Of a stretch of DNA of 35,360 nucleotides, positions 1 to 35,360 are shown in pieces (within the stretch, counting starts at the first letter, position 1; the number at the start of each line of letters is the position of its first letter). The DNA lies in IMG/VR virus record IMGVR_UViG_3300005435_000016, positions 1 through 35,360 of that record; one strand, written 5' to 3'. A program made the translations under genes and the position numbers. This DNA is from a virus. Under the pieces are notes generated by a model. It saw nothing but the letters and a program-made list of their open reading frames with translations. It was not told the origin of the DNA and did no database searches.

Positions 1-67
1 ACGGCTACGGCGCCTATCCCTATCCCCTGGTGACGCGATGATCTACCCAAAGGGAAACGGCTACGGC
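1..67. repeat. Terminal direct repeat, left copy
   Basis: Bases 1-67 are identical to 35294-35360 at the other end. The segment covers the tail of one Gly-X repeat gene, the GTGACGCGATGA junction and the first codons of the next unit. It is best explained as the overlap of a circular contig, or as a contig that broke on both sides within the same tandem gene array. If circular, the non-redundant length is 35293 bases. Confidence 0.85.
3..41 (+). CDS. 3' end of a Gly-X repeat protein gene (partial, cut by window edge)
   Basis: In-frame codons read GYGAYPYPLVTR and then TGA. This is the same C-terminus as the unit at 35077-35334, and it overlaps the ATG of the next unit at 38 by 4 nt. If the contig is circular this is simply the end of the 35077 unit; otherwise it is the end of a further copy. 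Confidence 0.75.
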   Translation, partial: GYGAYPYPLVTR

Positions 68-259
68 AACGGCTACGGCGACGGCTACGGCTACGGCGAC
101 GGCTACGGCAACGGCGACGGCGACGGCAACGGCTACGGCTACGGCTACGGCTACGGCAACGGCTACGGCTACGGCTACGGCTACGGCGACGGCTACGGCT
201 ACGGCGACGGCAACGGCAACGGCTACGGCGCCTATCCCTATCCCCTGGTGACGCGATGA
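38..259 (+). CDS. Gly-X repeat small protein, unit B (73 aa)
   Basis: The protein starts MIYPKG, continues as 29 X-Gly dipeptides and ends AYPYPLVTR. X is Tyr 16, Asn 7, Asp 6; every X codon is TAC, AAC or GAC, and the Gly codons within the repeat are GGC. Alternating Gly puts every X side chain on the same face of an extended strand, as in silk-like (GX)n sequences, so a self-assembling beta structure is a fair inference. No signal peptide or membrane segment is seen. The start overlaps the previous stop as ATGA and lacks a good Shine-Dalgarno, so translation is probably coupled. Function is unknown. The conserved head and tail, shared with three other units, argue that this is a real gene and not a microsatellite shadow. 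Confidence 0.75.
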   Translation: MIYPKGNGYGNGYGDGYGYGDGYGNGDGDGNGYGYGYGYGNGYGYGYGYGDGYGYGDGNGNGYGAYPYPLVTR

Positions 260-671
260 TCTACCCAAAGGGAAACGGCTACGGCAACGGCTACGGAGAC
301 GGATACGGATACGGAAACGGAGACGGAGACGGATACGGAGACGGATACGGAAACGGATACGGATACGGATACGGAAACGGAAACGGAAACGGATACGGAT
401 ACGGAAACGGATACGGATACGGAGACGGATACGGAGACGGATACGGAAACGGATACGGAAACGGAAACGGAGACGGTCGTTATCCCTACCACCTGGTGAC
501 GCGATGAAATACCCCAACGGAAACGGAGACGGATACGGATACGGATACGGATACGGAAACGGAAACGGAGACGGATACGGATACGGAAACGGAGACGGAG
601 ACGGATACGGATACGGAAACGGAGACGGAAACGGATACGGAGACGGATACGGAGACGGAGACGGATACGGT
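53..671 (+). repeat. Hexanucleotide repeat array (DACGGC / DACGGA)n in three tandem gene units
   Basis: Three blocks (53-229, 271-477, 519-671) consist of a 6-bp unit in which only one position varies freely: T, A or G, never C. Block one has GGC glycines, block three GGA, and block two starts GGC and switches to GGA. A fourth block is at 35092-35304. The 6-bp period keeps the reading frame at any copy number, so length change by slippage would not break the genes. The same strand read in reverse gives Ala-Val or Ser-Val repeats in which the variable base is a silent valine wobble. Confidence 0.9.
256..507 (+). CDS. Gly-X repeat small protein, unit C (83 aa), mosaic codon type
   Basis: MIYPKG head, 34 X-Gly dipeptides (Tyr 16, Asn 11, Asp 7) and tail RYPYHLVTR. 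The first 41 bases match units A and B, including GGC glycine codons; from about base 297 the glycines become GGA, as in unit D, and the tail is D-like. It therefore looks like a recombinant between two array subtypes. ATGA overlaps join it to the units on either side. No recognised family; function unknown. Confidence 0.75.
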   Translation: MIYPKGNGYGNGYGDGYGYGNGDGDGYGDGYGNGYGYGYGNGNGNGYGYGNGYGYGDGYGDGYGNGYGNGNGDGRYPYHLVTR

Positions 672-710
672 CGTTATCCCTACCATCTGGTGACGCGAGA
701 AAATTTATGA
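504..710 (+). CDS. Gly-X repeat small protein, unit D, last in array (68 aa)
   Basis: The variant head is MKYPNG, followed by 25 X-Gly dipeptides (Tyr 11, Asn 6, Asp 8, all GGA-type) and the tail RYPYHLVTRENL. Unlike the other units it does not stop directly after VTR: the reading frame runs on for ENL before a TGA that overlaps the recT ATG (ATGA at 707-710). This extension may be the remnant of the gene end that preceded recT before the array formed (inference). Function unknown; recT translation is probably coupled to it. Confidence 0.75.
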   Translation: MKYPNGNGDGYGYGYGYGNGNGDGYGYGNGDGDGYGYGNGDGNGYGDGYGDGDGYGRYPYHLVTRENL

Positions 711-1693
711 GCAACGAAATCGCCCCCTATCAAGATGCCATTAAGAACTCGCGTGATCGGTTCATGAAGGTCGCCGCGTCATCGGTGAACTATGACCGTG
801 AGTCCATCTTCGCTATGCAGGCGTTGATGAAGAATGATTACTCCATGAAGACGGCGAATCAGAACCCCCAATCCGTCATTCTGGCGATGATCAACGTAGC
901 CTCTACAGGGCTGACGCTAAATCCTGCCAATGGGTATGCCTACCTCGTCCCCCGGGACGGCGCTATCGTTCTGGACATCAGTTACAAGGGACTGATCAAG
1001 ATAGGTACGGACTGCGGCGCCATCGTCTGGTCAAGAGCTGACATCGTGTACGCCGAAGACACCTTCAAGTATCACGGCCCCGCCCGTATTCCTGATCATG
1101 ATGCCGACCCTTTCAAGAAGGATCGAGGCGAGATAGTAGGAGCCTATTGCATAGCCAAGACGAAGGATGGAGACATTCTGACCGAGACGATGCCAGTTTC
1201 CGAGCTGGAAAAGATCCGAGGTAAGTCAACCGCTTTCGTGAAGGGTCAGCCAGGAAGAAAGGGGCCATGGGAGGAATGGTTTGAGCAGATGGCGAAGAAG
1301 GCTGTCATCAAGCGTGCCAGCAAGACATGGCCGTACACTGATGATCGTCTTGCCCAGGCTATCGAAGTGGCCAACGTCTCCGAAGGAGGATATGATTTCG
1401 AAGGACGTCCAGATCAAATCAGCATTGAGGATACGCGGAAGAAGCTTTGCGACGAAGCCTACGAGCAGTACGGTCCTTCCGTCGATATCATCAAGGAAAA
1501 GATTAAAGCATGGGTCGATCAAGGTGAAGATGATGATTCGGATGAACTTTATACCGTCGCCGAGACATGGTCGGGAATTCCTTCCGCCGCGCAAATGGAT
1601 TTGTGGCTAGCTCCCACCAAAGGGGGCGTGTTTACCACGTTTGAGCGCGACACGATCAAGTCAAAGCTACCTAAGTTGGTACCATCTGCATGA
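707..1693 (+). CDS. recT: RecT-family single-strand annealing protein
   Basis: A 328-aa protein with hallmarks of RecT annealases: STGLTLNPANGYAYLVPR near residues 66-83, a following YKGLIKIG segment, and a C-terminal EEWFEQMAKKAVIKRASK helix near residues 189-206. RecT binds single-stranded DNA and promotes annealing and strand invasion in phage recombination. The usual partner 5'-3' exonuclease (RecE or lambda-exo type) is not found beside it or elsewhere in the window. The ATG overlaps the stop of the last Gly-X repeat gene by 4 nt, so its expression is tied to translation through the array. Length is slightly above the Rac RecT (269 aa) because of an acidic C-terminal extension. Confidence 0.93.
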   Translation: MSNEIAPYQDAIKNSRDRFMKVAASSVNYDRESIFAMQALMKNDYSMKTANQNPQSVILAMINVASTGLTLNPANGYAYLVPRDGAIVLDISYKGLIKIGTDCGAIVWSRADIVYAEDTFKYHGPARIPDHDADPFKKDRGEIVGAYCIAKTKDGDILTETMPVSELEKIRGKSTAFVKGQPGRKGPWEEWFEQMAKKAVIKRASKTWPYTDDRLAQAIEVANVSEGGYDFEGRPDQISIEDTRKKLCDEAYEQYGPSVDIIKEKIKAWVDQGEDDDSDELYTVAETWSGIPSAAQMDLWLAPTKGGVFTTFERDTIKSKLPKLVPSA

Positions 1694-32937: not shown

Positions 32938-33213
32938 ATGACAACCAAAATTCTCGCAGTGTCCGGTGGATTCTACTTTTTCGGTACCGAAGTTCCGGCA
33001 CCGGAGGGCTACGTCGCACTCAAGAACGGCGCCATGTTCGGCGGTTTCTCGGGAGGTAAGGGACTCCCTGGTGTATCGCGTGGGGACAAGGAAGCCAAAG
33101 TCACGCTGGATTGTTTCGACCCCAAGGAAGAGCTGGTCTTCCCAATCACGGCGGTCTTCGCAATCCTTCCCAGCATCGACCTGCATACCTTCAAGGGGAC
33201 GACTTTCCGCTGA
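32938..33213 (+). CDS. Hypothetical Gly/Phe-rich early protein, 91 aa
   Basis: MTTKILAVSGGFYFFGTEVP, then KNGAMFGGFSGGKGLPGVSR: mainly beta with Gly-rich loops. Gene has its own leader with hairpins and lies immediately before the MoxR-VWA-array genes. Could be an accessory of that system, but nothing in the sequence proves it. Confidence 0.6.
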   Translation: MTTKILAVSGGFYFFGTEVPAPEGYVALKNGAMFGGFSGGKGLPGVSRGDKEAKVTLDCFDPKEELVFPITAVFAILPSIDLHTFKGTTFR

Positions 33214-33245: not shown

Positions 33246-34025
33246 ATGAAGTACATCCCGCAAGTTCCTGTTTTGCACGTTGGTCCGCCTGGATCAGGGA
33301 AAACAGCGAGTGTTCTAGCCAGCTTTGACCATGCGGAAGTGGTACTTACTTCGTCCATGGTGGAAGAAGACGTGGCCGGCCTGCCGTATCGAGAAGGCGT
33401 GCATGACTTACGGACGATTCCTGGTCTTTTTCGCCGTCTTCATGCGGCGGCTGACGAAGGCAAGACGACCTGTCTCTTTTTGGACGAGTTGGACAAGGCT
33501 CGCCGCTCTGTCGCCGACACCCTTCTGACGCTTATCGTATCGCGTCGCGTGGGTGACGCTTCACTTCCTTCGTCTACATGCATCATTGGCGCCGCCAACC
33601 CGCCGGAATGGGGTGGTGGGGATGGCGTAAGCGACGCCATGATCTCCCGATTTTCTGTCGTGGACTTCGTTCCTGACGTATCCGCTTGGGTGGCATGGGC
33701 TGGTCTTCGGTACACAAAACAGGAATGTCACCAAGTGATTCAAGCAGTGGCTTGTGGGGAATTGCCACTTATCGCTCGCACAGGCGAGGATTTCTCACGT
33801 CGCATCACGTCGCCTCGAACACTGGCCATGGCGCTCGACTTGGTCGAAGCGTTTCCGACTGACATTCCTCAAGCACTAATACAAGGTCTTGTGACGGCAG
33901 CAACTGCAAGCCAAATCATGCATTTGGTGACGACGACGCCTAACGAGGTGATGAAGACGTCAACCCAGTCCGCACGCCGCGCATGGAATGTTACTGGTAG
34001 GTCTCCTTTGAGGATTGAAGGGTGA
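33246..34025 (+). CDS. MoxR-type AAA+ ATPase, 259 aa
   Basis: Walker A GPPGSGKT (residues 13-20), Walker B CLFLDELD (76-83), sensor-1 GAANPPEW (115-122) and SDAMISRF with its Arg finger (129-136). The pattern and size fit the MoxR branch, whose members work with VWA-domain partners as chaperones or activators. AAGGA precedes the ATG. It overlaps the VWA gene by GTGA, the standard MoxR-VWA operon arrangement, here in a phage early operon. Confidence 0.88.
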   Translation: MKYIPQVPVLHVGPPGSGKTASVLASFDHAEVVLTSSMVEEDVAGLPYREGVHDLRTIPGLFRRLHAAADEGKTTCLFLDELDKARRSVADTLLTLIVSRRVGDASLPSSTCIIGAANPPEWGGGDGVSDAMISRFSVVDFVPDVSAWVAWAGLRYTKQECHQVIQAVACGELPLIARTGEDFSRRITSPRTLAMALDLVEAFPTDIPQALIQGLVTAATASQIMHLVTTTPNEVMKTSTQSARRAWNVTGRSPLRIEG

Positions 34026-35080
34026 TTTTCGTCGCCGCCCCCATCGTTCGCCAACCATTGGAGATAGTTGGCGCTCCCGGTAAAACCGATTTCGTCCGCA
34101 TATTCATCGCCGACGAACTCAATGACCGCGAATACCGAACCACACTTCGCCATGAGCAGGCGCATGTATGGTCGCGTCACGATTGCCGGAGACCTTCACC
34201 AGTGGACGTGAAGGTATGGTCTATTGCCTGTGAGATGGAAATAGCCCGAACCATTTATGATGCCATTGATATTGATACCATCACTGCACCACGTTCACGG
34301 TTGTCGGGTGGCTATCTGCCAGGAAGCATATCAGCACTTCCTGATGACCTGACGTTAGCTGAAGAGATCTATACATGGCTAATGGAGCATCCAGAGGAAC
34401 ATAGCGAATATGTATCCTGCACATGTTGCACGAATCCAGCATCTGAAGATGCATCCGATAATATCGAATCGCCTTCCAAGATTGTAGAAGGGACTCGCGA
34501 ATGCTTGGATGAAGTAGAGGCCAAAGCTGTTGCAAAAAATCAACTCACGCGGTCCATTGAAGATATAGCACGCCGCCCACCCTCTCTTACCGAAGCGATA
34601 GATGCTGCGCTTCGCGTCCGCGTAGAACGTGAACGTAGTTACCGTAGACCGTCGCGGCGCCATGAAAAAAATGATTTGCTTCCAGCAGGCCATATTTCAA
34701 CGCCGCGTCCTCCTCTTGTAGAAATTTTCGTAGACCGTAGTGGATCTTTCAGCGCTGAGAAAACTGCCGAAGCAGAACAGGCTTTGTCTGCGTTGTTAAG
34801 CCGATATAGAGCCACTATTAGGCAAGACGTATGGTTTTTTGGAAACGGACGACTTTCGTCTGCTGATATTCCTGGTGGAGGAAACACGCCCTATGATCTT
34901 GTAGCTAACCACATCCATTCCAGCCTGCCTCGCGTAGCTATTGTTGTCACCGACGACGATTCGGTAGATGGTTTGACTATTCCCAGCATGCCTAAGAATG
35001 TTTCCATTCTGTGCATTCCTATTGGCTGTTCTCGTACTAATCTGGCTGTCGCCTTAGGTGGCGTGGATGTGACGCGATGA
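34022..35080 (+). CDS. Metallopeptidase-VWA protein (DUF2201-like), 352 aa
   Basis: The N-terminal domain has TLRHEQAHVW with an HExxH zinc site (residues 44-48), and WSIACEMEIA with a further acidic ligand candidate. The middle is charged. The C-terminal VWA-like domain has VEIFVDRSGSFS (MIDAS DxSxS, 238-242), GGGNTPYD (285-292) and IVVTDDDSVDG. This two-domain pattern with a MoxR partner fits the DUF2201 group. Start is GTG. Its last codons, VTR plus TGA, share GTGACGCGATGA with every array junction, and it overlaps the first repeat gene by 4 nt. Confidence 0.82.
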   Translation: MIFVAAPIVRQPLEIVGAPGKTDFVRIFIADELNDREYRTTLRHEQAHVWSRHDCRRPSPVDVKVWSIACEMEIARTIYDAIDIDTITAPRSRLSGGYLPGSISALPDDLTLAEEIYTWLMEHPEEHSEYVSCTCCTNPASEDASDNIESPSKIVEGTRECLDEVEAKAVAKNQLTRSIEDIARRPPSLTEAIDAALRVRVERERSYRRPSRRHEKNDLLPAGHISTPRPPLVEIFVDRSGSFSAEKTAEAEQALSALLSRYRATIRQDVWFFGNGRLSSADIPGGGNTPYDLVANHIHSSLPRVAIVVTDDDSVDGLTIPSMPKNVSILCIPIGCSRTNLAVALGGVDVTR

Positions 35081-35334
35081 TCTACCCAAAGGGAAACGGC
35101 TACGGCAACGGCTACGGCAACGGCGACGGCTACGGCGACGGCTACGGCTACGGCTACGGCGACGGCGACGGCAACGGCAACGGCGACGGCGACGGCTACG
35201 GCTACGGCAACGGCTACGGCGACGGCTACGGCTACGGCGACGGCTACGGCAACGGCTACGGCGACGGCTACGGCTACGGCGACGGCTACGGCAACGGCTA
35301 CGGCGCCTATCCCTATCCCCTGGTGACGCGATGA
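35077..35334 (+). CDS. Gly-X repeat small protein, unit A, first in array (85 aa)
   Basis: MIYPKG head, 35 X-Gly dipeptides (Tyr 17, Asp 10, Asn 8, all GGC-type) and AYPYPLVTR tail. ATGA overlap with the metallopeptidase-VWA gene and with the next unit. Internal 42-bp duplication lengthens it relative to the other units. No known family; silk-like alternation of Gly and X is the only structural hint. Confidence 0.75.
   Translation: MIYPKGNGYGNGYGNGDGYGDGYGYGYGDGDGNGNGDGDGYGYGNGYGDGYGYGDGYGNGYGDGYGYGDGYGNGYGAYPYPLVTR
35209..35304 (+). repeat. 42-bp higher-order repeat inside unit A (2.3 copies)
   Basis: The X string N-Y-D-Y-Y-D-Y is encoded twice in exact tandem (35209-35250, 35251-35292), followed by N-Y. 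Exact identity between copies points to a recent duplication by slippage or unequal crossover. Confidence 0.85.
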
Positions 35335-35360
35335 TCTACCCAAAGGGAAACGGCTACGGC
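35294..35360. repeat. Terminal direct repeat, right copy
   Basis: Identical to bases 1-67. See the left copy. The window stops inside the repeat, 12 codons into a unit-type head. Confidence 0.85.
35331..35360 (+). CDS. 5' end of next Gly-X repeat gene (partial, cut by window edge)
   Basis: MIYPKGNGYG in frame, overlapping the previous stop by ATGA. If circular it is the start of unit B at 38; if not, it is a fifth unit. Confidence 0.7.
   Translation, partial: MIYPKGNGYG

Follow-up and report, generated by a model that had tools for sequence, protein, structure and literature searches.

The Sm/LSm proteins SmD1, SmD3 and LSm4 carry glycine-rich or Asn-rich low-complexity tails. Here we describe a viral arrangement with similar parts, in which a gene for a predicted Sm fold accompanies genes for a Gly-rich, probably disordered chain of Gly-X dipeptides, (GX)n. 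We analysed a 35,360-nucleotide (nt) stretch (the window; IMG/VR virus record IMGVR_UViG_3300005435_000016, classed as linear), which holds a tandem array of such (GX)n genes, here called units, and compared it with related loci in other phages. In contrast to the Sm/LSm tails, the chain is phage-encoded, mostly a separate gene, often in tandem and hypervariable, and it is acidic and aromatic (D, Y, N, S) with almost no Arg; in one locus (L018) chain and predicted Sm fold are fused. From its sequence, the pair formed by (GX)n genes and a gene of the DUF6948 type looks like an undescribed two-gene viral system.

Other known systems share single properties with the arrays. Contingency loci and coding microsatellites vary through slippage of short tandem repeats, as the arrays appear to do, but the 6-bp unit of the arrays keeps the frame, so that length and content can change without switching a gene off, and their synonymous sites are almost fixed. 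Diversity-generating retroelements also produce targeted-looking variation in phage proteins, whereas the arrays mostly keep the middle A of the X codon and no reverse transcriptase match was found in four of four records. The EBNA1 Gly-Ala repeat and silk-like proteins are Gly-X repeats, and a dipeptide repeat of variable length is common to them and the arrays; the likeness is one of description, as X is polar or aromatic in the arrays and host and context differ. No description of the DUF6948/(GX)n pair, and no paper naming DUF6948, was found in the titles and abstracts searched, a coverage that leaves out most subscription journals. The (GX)n gene goes unmentioned in the matching passages of PMC6715854 and in passages of PMC11445585.

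In the window, the units and the ribosome-binding motifs between them are as follows.

35077..35334, plus strand: (Gly-X)n unit of 85 amino acids (aa), an intact open reading frame (ORF) with an ATGA overlap with the stop of the preceding VWA gene
35331..35360, plus strand: start of a (Gly-X)n unit (sequence MIYPKGNGYG), sliced by the contig end
1..41, plus strand: end of a (Gly-X)n unit (GAYPYPLVTR, then stop), sliced by the contig start
38..259, plus strand: (Gly-X)n unit of 73 aa, intact ORF
256..507, plus strand: (Gly-X)n unit of 83 aa, intact ORF
504..710, plus strand: (Gly-X)n unit of 68 aa, intact ORF with an ATGA overlap with the recT start
29..33, plus strand: Shine-Dalgarno-like motif GGTGA, 4 nt ahead of the ATG at 38
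247-251, 495-499 and 35322-35326, plus strand: GGTGA in the sequence, in a like arrangement before the next ATG

Among the four intact units the head is MIYPKG in three and MKYPNG in one, and the tail is AYPYPLVTR in two, RYPYHLVTR in one and RYPYHLVTRENL in one. ATGA stands at every joint, between the VWA stop and the first unit (35077-35080), between units (35331-35334, 38-41, 256-259 and 504-507) and between the final unit and recT (707-710), which bears out a first-pass annotation that had described at least four small Gly-X genes with conserved head and tail, joined by ATGA overlaps among themselves as well as with the preceding VWA gene and recT. That annotation had placed the array at 1-710; this part is real, but it is just the second part of an array that begins at 35077 and runs across the contig ends to 710, with at least one unit cut. 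The first 11 nt of the contig equal its last 11 nt, in identical repeat letters, so that the contig probably broke inside the array. By TRF the arrays have period 6 and 28.8, 66.3 and 34.8 copies, above chance, and the Gly codon differs among units, being GGC in some and GGA in others. The minus strand is open over the arrays as well (20-714 and 34891-35358, ORFs of 66-165 aa), as expected from the hexamer, and this gives no sign of genes.

The units belong to no convincing known family, as the first-pass annotation had held. TrAA12 (PF22807) scores over the cut-off in two of the four units (31.9 and 32.4 against 30.9 bits), at positions 384-434 only, and because about 50 of 463 positions are covered we take the match as low complexity; keratin-type Pfam matches fall below the cut-off. 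In PHROGs, phrog_18306 and other families of unknown function match three of the four units.

Relatives of the same type, sought by head, tail and VWA searches, are phages with tandem M[KIN]YP-(GX)n-YPYx[LM]VTR units; head and tail motifs, which the first-pass annotation had singled out, recovered the same head, core and tail in 9 further loci (two on one contig). Together with the window's 4 units this gives 24, tallied with a pattern that demands head, Gly-X core and ATGA start, so that a frame-broken unit could slip past. The conservation of ATG and stop extends to these relatives, with ATGA at the end of 19 of the 21 units that have a stop. In 15 of the 21 closed units the last 13 nt read GGTGACGCGATGA, third positions also kept, and the gene preceding some arrays likewise closes with GGTGACGCG or a close variant of it. 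Third-base conservation in GGTGACGCGATGA, with GGTGA 4 nt before the ATG, suggests that the conserved YPY-x-LVTR tail, which the first-pass annotation had noted and which does recur in relatives, serves at least partly as the ribosome-binding site of the following gene. In another (GX)n type an arginine-rich tail overlies AGGAG-like sites in several of 16 loci. Start and stop codons thus overlap, ribosome-binding sites lie in the upstream genes, and the units appear arranged for translational coupling: as each ORF begins at the preceding stop and most units carry GGTGA in their last codons, they would be produced one after another, following the Sm-like, MoxR and VWA genes.

Across phages, the usual neighbour of (GX)n genes is a DUF6948-type gene. 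A scan for nine G-[YND] hexamers gave at least 120 stretches and, with all searches pooled, at least 155 ORFs in at least 123 loci have (GX)n cores, with highly diverse heads and tails. Of the 88 locus-strands with at least 450 nt upstream (11 duplicate loci having been removed beforehand), 73 have a DUF6948-type gene no more than 1.5 kb upstream, mostly 2-60 nt off, a count that is partly circular because the seeds of the hidden Markov model (HMM) were chosen by eye among these very neighbours. The 15 exceptions include six loci of the window's own group (L122, L125, L126, L129, L130 and L135), three with the DUF6948-type gene downstream (L005, L033 and L099), one in which the genes are interleaved (L058) and the L018 fusion. 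Pfam DUF6948 (PF22253) matches 27 of 86 upstream neighbours at E<=0.01, each being the longest ORF ending within 500 nt.

The reverse test began from DUF6948. Among 433 stretches, 398 are relatives of one DUF6948 subgroup in IMG/VR, and the best 80 of these 398 were used; in 76 of the 80 loci a (GX)n core follows DUF6948 at no more than 160 nt, and three of the misses (L196, L216 and L257) have only 36, 1 and 1 nt downstream. With the 12 loci excluded that are the same or near-identical DNA as in the (GX)n scan, 65 of 68 carry (GX)n. For L187 and L204 the script gave another frame, and the proper G-[YND] frame is open as well. Among named phages, DUF6948-type queries matched 119 and 15 INPHARED records by tblastn (134 in total), and all 21 of those examined (11 Barba, 8 Pectobacterium/Dickeya, PhiPLPE and ct8d5349) carry a (GX)n ORF beside a DUF6948-type gene; that of ct8d5349 is irregular, and that of Iodobacter phage PhiPLPE is missing among the annotated genes. 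In Barba1A numbering the DUF6948 protein is gp018 and the GX protein gp017.

Two further observations connect the parts. In L018, DUF6948 and 43 GX pairs form one ORF, a natural fusion seen in 1 of 188 DUF6948-type ORFs. The profile phrog_18306 (242 positions) is matched by window units at 57-146 and by DUF6948-type proteins at 153-240, which, judged from the match positions, suggests proteins that hold both parts; the unit matches are weak (E 3.5e-4 to 2.7e-3), low complexity is a possible cause, and the window's Sm-like gene is unmatched. Of six more proteins compared with PHROGs, one matched, L018 to phrog_18306.

The DUF6948-type protein is predicted to have an Sm/LSm fold. Its model (predicted local distance difference test, pLDDT, 89.9) finds PDB 3by7, an Sm/LSm-like protein of an uncultured organism, as the top Foldseek match (E 3e-3, prob 1.00), at a sequence identity of 16-21%, and VIA aligns the two with Z 8.9 and a root mean squared deviation (rmsd) of 2.1 over 68 residues, where a Z below 8 can reflect a common arrangement. 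Most of the best 50 VIA rows are Sm/LSm-bearing entries, with designed TIP60 particles as plain exceptions. We take 3by7 to be of cyanophage origin and know of no (GX)n partner for it.

Upstream of the array the window contains a gene that appears to be a distant relative of DUF6948. It and the other genes flanking the units are as follows.

32938..33213, plus strand: Sm-like, DUF6948-related companion of 91 aa, gene 32938-33210 (profile-profile match, fold model)
33246..34025, plus strand: MoxR-type AAA+ ATPase (AAA_5, 9.8e-8; phrog_1297, 9.8e-24)
34022..35080, plus strand: DUF2201-type putative metallopeptidase/VWA-like protein (PF13203, 5.4e-6; phrog_1314, 8.9e-15)
707..1693, plus strand: RecT family single-strand annealing protein (PF03837, 6.8e-32; phrog_148, 6.1e-62)

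Against a profile of 56 DUF6948-type sequences, hhalign places the 91-aa protein with Prob 87.7 and E 3.4e-6 over 57 columns, and the local DUF6948 HMM matches it weakly (E 0.063); by sequence we regard it as related to DUF6948 and do not assign it to PF22253. Its AF2 model (pLDDT 74.1, pTM 0.60) predicts a five-stranded Sm barrel and aligns with 4emh (SpLsm4) in VIA with Z 8.8 and rmsd 1.9 over 59 residues; the best 50 rows are spliceosome, snRNP, SmAP or LSm by entry title. The PF22253 model misses both the Barba1A record and this gene, though wider profiles connect them, which suggests that the DUF6948 family is broader than its model; for the same reason, the finding of no PF22253 match in 369 genomes of the class says little.

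The first-pass annotation had seen the units as a set made together with a MoxR/VWA pair. Adjacent MoxR AAA+ and VWA genes are indeed present in the window, but across phages the general partner is the DUF6948-type Sm-like protein, and MoxR/VWA accompany this phage group. Relatives of the 91-aa gene occur in 9 viral loci, every one of this group, and of the nine contigs besides the window that have the Sm-like, MoxR and VWA genes, eight show these three followed by (GX)n in that order (two of them, L122 and L179, being near-identical). For the VWA-like gene, PF09967 (VWA-like DUF2201) reaches 0.058, below the cut-off; phrog_1314 is labelled 'HNH endonuclease' whereas Pfam points to a DUF2201 metallopeptidase type, and the former label may be wrong. 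Nor does recT hold as a general neighbour, since none of the relatives searched showed the window's recT behind the array. We also rejected recT as a functional partner: in the 17 group loci searched, several of which end inside the array, the window's RecT matches just an 86-aa stretch in L175/L135 (one phage), located upstream of the Sm-like gene, with the window's RecT alone sought and no search made for other annealing proteins.

The arrays vary in an unusual way. We compared 63 arrays reached through DUF6948 among the best 80 of 398 loci (14 of the 80 lacked a 15-hexamer stretch and three duplicate arrays were dropped; acceptance required at least 60% of X to be Y, N, D, S, H or F). Mean heterozygosity is.056 at the third base of the Gly codon (Gly3) and.577,.123 and.068 at the three bases of the X codon (X1, X2 and X3); X1 exceeds Gly3 in 63 of 63 arrays and is never uniform, and full uniformity is seen for Gly3 in 43, for X3 in 23 and for both in 16. 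In control Gly-[DNESTA] runs of long ORFs, a weak control of just 9 Gly-X runs, Gly3 is.497 and X1.196, and X1 exceeds Gly3 in one of nine. In 60 of the 63 arrays, Y, N and D codons have one commonest third-base pair in common, the commonest Gly3,X3 being C,C in 41, C,T in 13, G,C in 5, T,C in 2, T,T in 1 and A,T in 1. At X the composition is Y.414, N.255, D.235 and S.066, with Ala, Val, Leu, Arg, Lys and Glu at about 0.1-0.2% each. Adjacent X residues show an identity (lag-1) excess of -0.015, so that X order is near random in most arrays; some carry block duplications (LRS p<=0.05 in 25 of 117, lag-2 excess in 23). Across unrelated phages the G-[Y/N/D/S] protein pattern is kept and the DNA hexamer differs.

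Close relatives show the same changes directly. Over this stretch 112 of 115 Barba records are at >=99% identity and 3 at 90-95%. The 11 Barba phages compared have 8 alleles in all: 9 are identical in their flanks (300 nt upstream and 500 nt downstream) with six core alleles, which differ from Barba1A by one X1 change, three single-hexamer gains and one shifted N, and in 31A and 19A (1 and 3 flank mismatches) the cores are entirely different and mix their third bases. That MK719 and MT497 accessions share the X1 allele speaks against an assembly error. Ymer and Amona have 0 mismatches in a 900-nt flank and quite different arrays, and Ymer and Abuela have the same array; L122 and L128 differ by a single mismatch in 5726 nt, located at X1; and L059 and L096 have cores of 43 and 97 aa in near-identical flanks, where short-read collapse is possible. 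Some other close pairs share an array (L035/L237). In the alleles compared, lengths change in whole 6-bp hexamers and the frame is kept, as the first-pass annotation had anticipated. Array swaps by recombination are possible.

We simulated hexamer duplication and loss, point mutation and composition selection (8 settings, 12 runs each; recombination between arrays left out), and rejected simple slippage with selection, which gave a Gly-third heterozygosity of 0.30-0.41 against 0.056 observed and a lag-1 excess of 0.29-0.36 against -0.015; without selection, X1 heterozygosity was 0-0.29. With the array statistics, this indicates that X is effectively re-drawn far faster than the synonymous sites. 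The cause may be strong selection, frequent recombination or some targeted process. That a writing process re-draws the first base of codon X (in Ser arrays also the second) and leaves the other bases fixed is improbable in our estimate. If true, it would be a targeted diversification other than a retroelement, by which the disordered partner of an Sm-like ribonucleoprotein varies from phage to phage in one population. A diversity-generating retroelement itself was rejected, with no reverse transcriptase match and the wrong base pattern: PF00078 was found in none of four records (window, Barba1A, Ymer and PhiPLPE; the control was positive in 3 of 14 genomes, and the window contig is possibly incomplete), and substitution is not adenine-specific, with X2 at.123 against X1 at.577 and AAC mostly keeping its second A, as judged from array content with no template comparison.

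Our preferred reading, held tentatively and at somewhat short of an even chance, is that the (GX)n units are the translation-coupled low-complexity partner of the phage Sm-like protein in nucleoprotein assembly. The Sm-like protein would assemble into a ring or oligomer and bind nucleic acid, most likely RNA. The Gly/Tyr-rich chain, made from its own gene, would serve it as a sticky disordered tail and gather the complex into a ribonucleoprotein assembly or condensate in the course of infection, with tandem copies raising the valency. By composition alone the chains resemble phase-separating low-complexity proteins, with aromatic stickers among Gly/Asn/Ser/Asp spacers. Composition alone (about 40-47% Tyr at X, the remainder mainly Asn, Asp or Ser) would matter, so that order and length would be free to drift.

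Several points weigh against this nucleoprotein reading. Translation, binding, the RNA role and the condensate of the pair are all inferred. Order-free drift alone fails to explain the random adjacent X and the shared third bases. Arrays without a detected DUF6948 occur in L053, L056, L093 and L104, L245 is a true absence in which DUF6948 has no array within 2500 nt, and L131 has the Sm-like, MoxR and VWA genes with no array in the following 2 kb. In the window, MoxR and VWA separate the Sm-like gene from the units; that gene has no Pfam match at E<=1, PF22253 included, and no PHROG match at E<=0.01, and its DUF6948 link consists of the 57-column profile match and a moderate-confidence model. 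The Foldseek E-values are modest (3e-3), and a shared fold proves no function.

The same variation could come from an arms race, in which a hypervariable recognition or decoy protein, presented by the Sm-like protein, evades or blocks a host factor such as a defence sensor, protease or receptor through its X sequence; we consider this unlikely. The different arrays of Ymer and Amona, the 8 Barba alleles in identical or nearly identical flanks, the non-synonymous character of the changes (X1 against the Gly third base) and the failure of slippage with composition selection to reproduce the pattern all speak for it, yet the same few X residues recur in unrelated phages, the Barba alleles differ though one host strain is listed for all, no host target was seen, and the X order is near random in most arrays. 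At the other extreme, the array might be a tolerated, slippage-prone hexamer run of little function, whose recombination-born tandem copies persist since frame and coupling are kept. The hexamer gains and losses observed directly, the long repeated blocks and the few DUF6948 or VWA loci without an array are what one would expect of it; we nevertheless find it quite improbable, given that 76 of the 80 DUF6948 loci keep the array, that six residues are nearly absent from X and that X1 is uniform in none of the 63 arrays.

Two alternatives place the function elsewhere. Were the units a substrate or cofactor of the MoxR/VWA pair, the fixed gene order in eight of nine viral contigs would follow, but most (GX)n genes found adjoin DUF6948, and with one neighbour counted per side phrog_1297 is seen in 4 of 76 neighbours downstream and phrog_1314 in 5 of 86 neighbours upstream, the latter equal to the number of window-group VWA loci in that set; we give this little credence. 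A nucleotide-level element (RNA sponge, coupling spacer or recombination site beside recT), with the peptide incidental, seems very improbable: hexamers are uniform inside an array and the third positions of GGTGACGCGATGA are kept, but the hexamer differs between phages while G-[YNDS] stays, window units mix GGC and GGA types and recT is no constant neighbour. The GGA-rich cores of two window units resemble what we take to be a CsrA-type motif; a CsrA/GGA sponge or other nucleotide element was nevertheless rejected, as the hexamer varies between units as well as phages and Rfam has no match in the window at the gathering score.

The nucleoprotein reading, if correct, links an uncharacterized phage family, for one DUF6948 subgroup of which IMG/VR holds 398 relatives, to the Sm/LSm world with a separate low-complexity partner, and phages may build ribonucleoprotein assemblies by the logic of eukaryotic Sm/LSm bodies. 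The arrays also offer a natural experiment in low-complexity evolution, with composition kept, order scrambled and scant synonymous change. Both questions appear directly testable in Barba18A, a Rheinheimera phage, with its host strain BAL341 from the Baltic Sea, for which transcriptomics are published; there, the first expression cluster of Barba18A is reported to consist mainly of replication and nucleotide genes (PMC9305737).

Neighbour families of (GX)n loci, among the matches listed, include replication and recombination genes, in line with the nucleoprotein reading (clamp loader, DnaB, primase, NinG, SSB, Erf, RecE and other annealing proteins), but also terminase and numerous HNH endonucleases; one gene may match several and many neighbours are unmatched. 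Window proteins have portal, coat, head-closure and DNA-ejection matches, which presumably resemble a P22-like podovirus. Within the window's group, units lie at both ends of contig 3300046660_000086 (L123, L127 and L178), as in the window, and contig 3300014658_000004 (L177 and L130) has them in two places, before the Sm-like gene and again after VWA. L131:2525-2551 is a natural array-free site, where the gene directly after Sm-like, MoxR and VWA is a different one, 26 nt away. Unit tails are altered in L175/L135 and L127, and in L125 and Luteibacter one additional head leads into a 34-aa ORF without a core; of the 8 stretches from bacterial genome contigs, those of Luteibacter and Dyella bear such units.

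Seven loci (L005, L058, L068, L076, L086, L110 and L113) have two to four neighbouring (GX)n genes with a head in common, so that tandem multiplication is not peculiar to the window's group. Elsewhere (GX)n is joined to other domains. In L056 (Pfam, 9.4e-31) and L033 (by eye) a DUF7666-type head precedes it, and in L013, L039, L061, L098, L114 and L117 it follows an N-terminal domain of about 70 aa with a motif, judged by eye, of the [AS]G[AS]C.xGV type, for which Pfam gave nothing above the cut-off on the L013 and L117 copies. Searches of INPHARED by tblastn with the VWA protein and one (GX)n-fused domain led nowhere. In L012, L042, L051, L056 (cut by the contig end) and L070, (GX)n precedes a C-terminal domain with an LTGSCxxGR-type motif, which has relatives in two Riemerella phages annotated 'ribonuclease inhibitor'.
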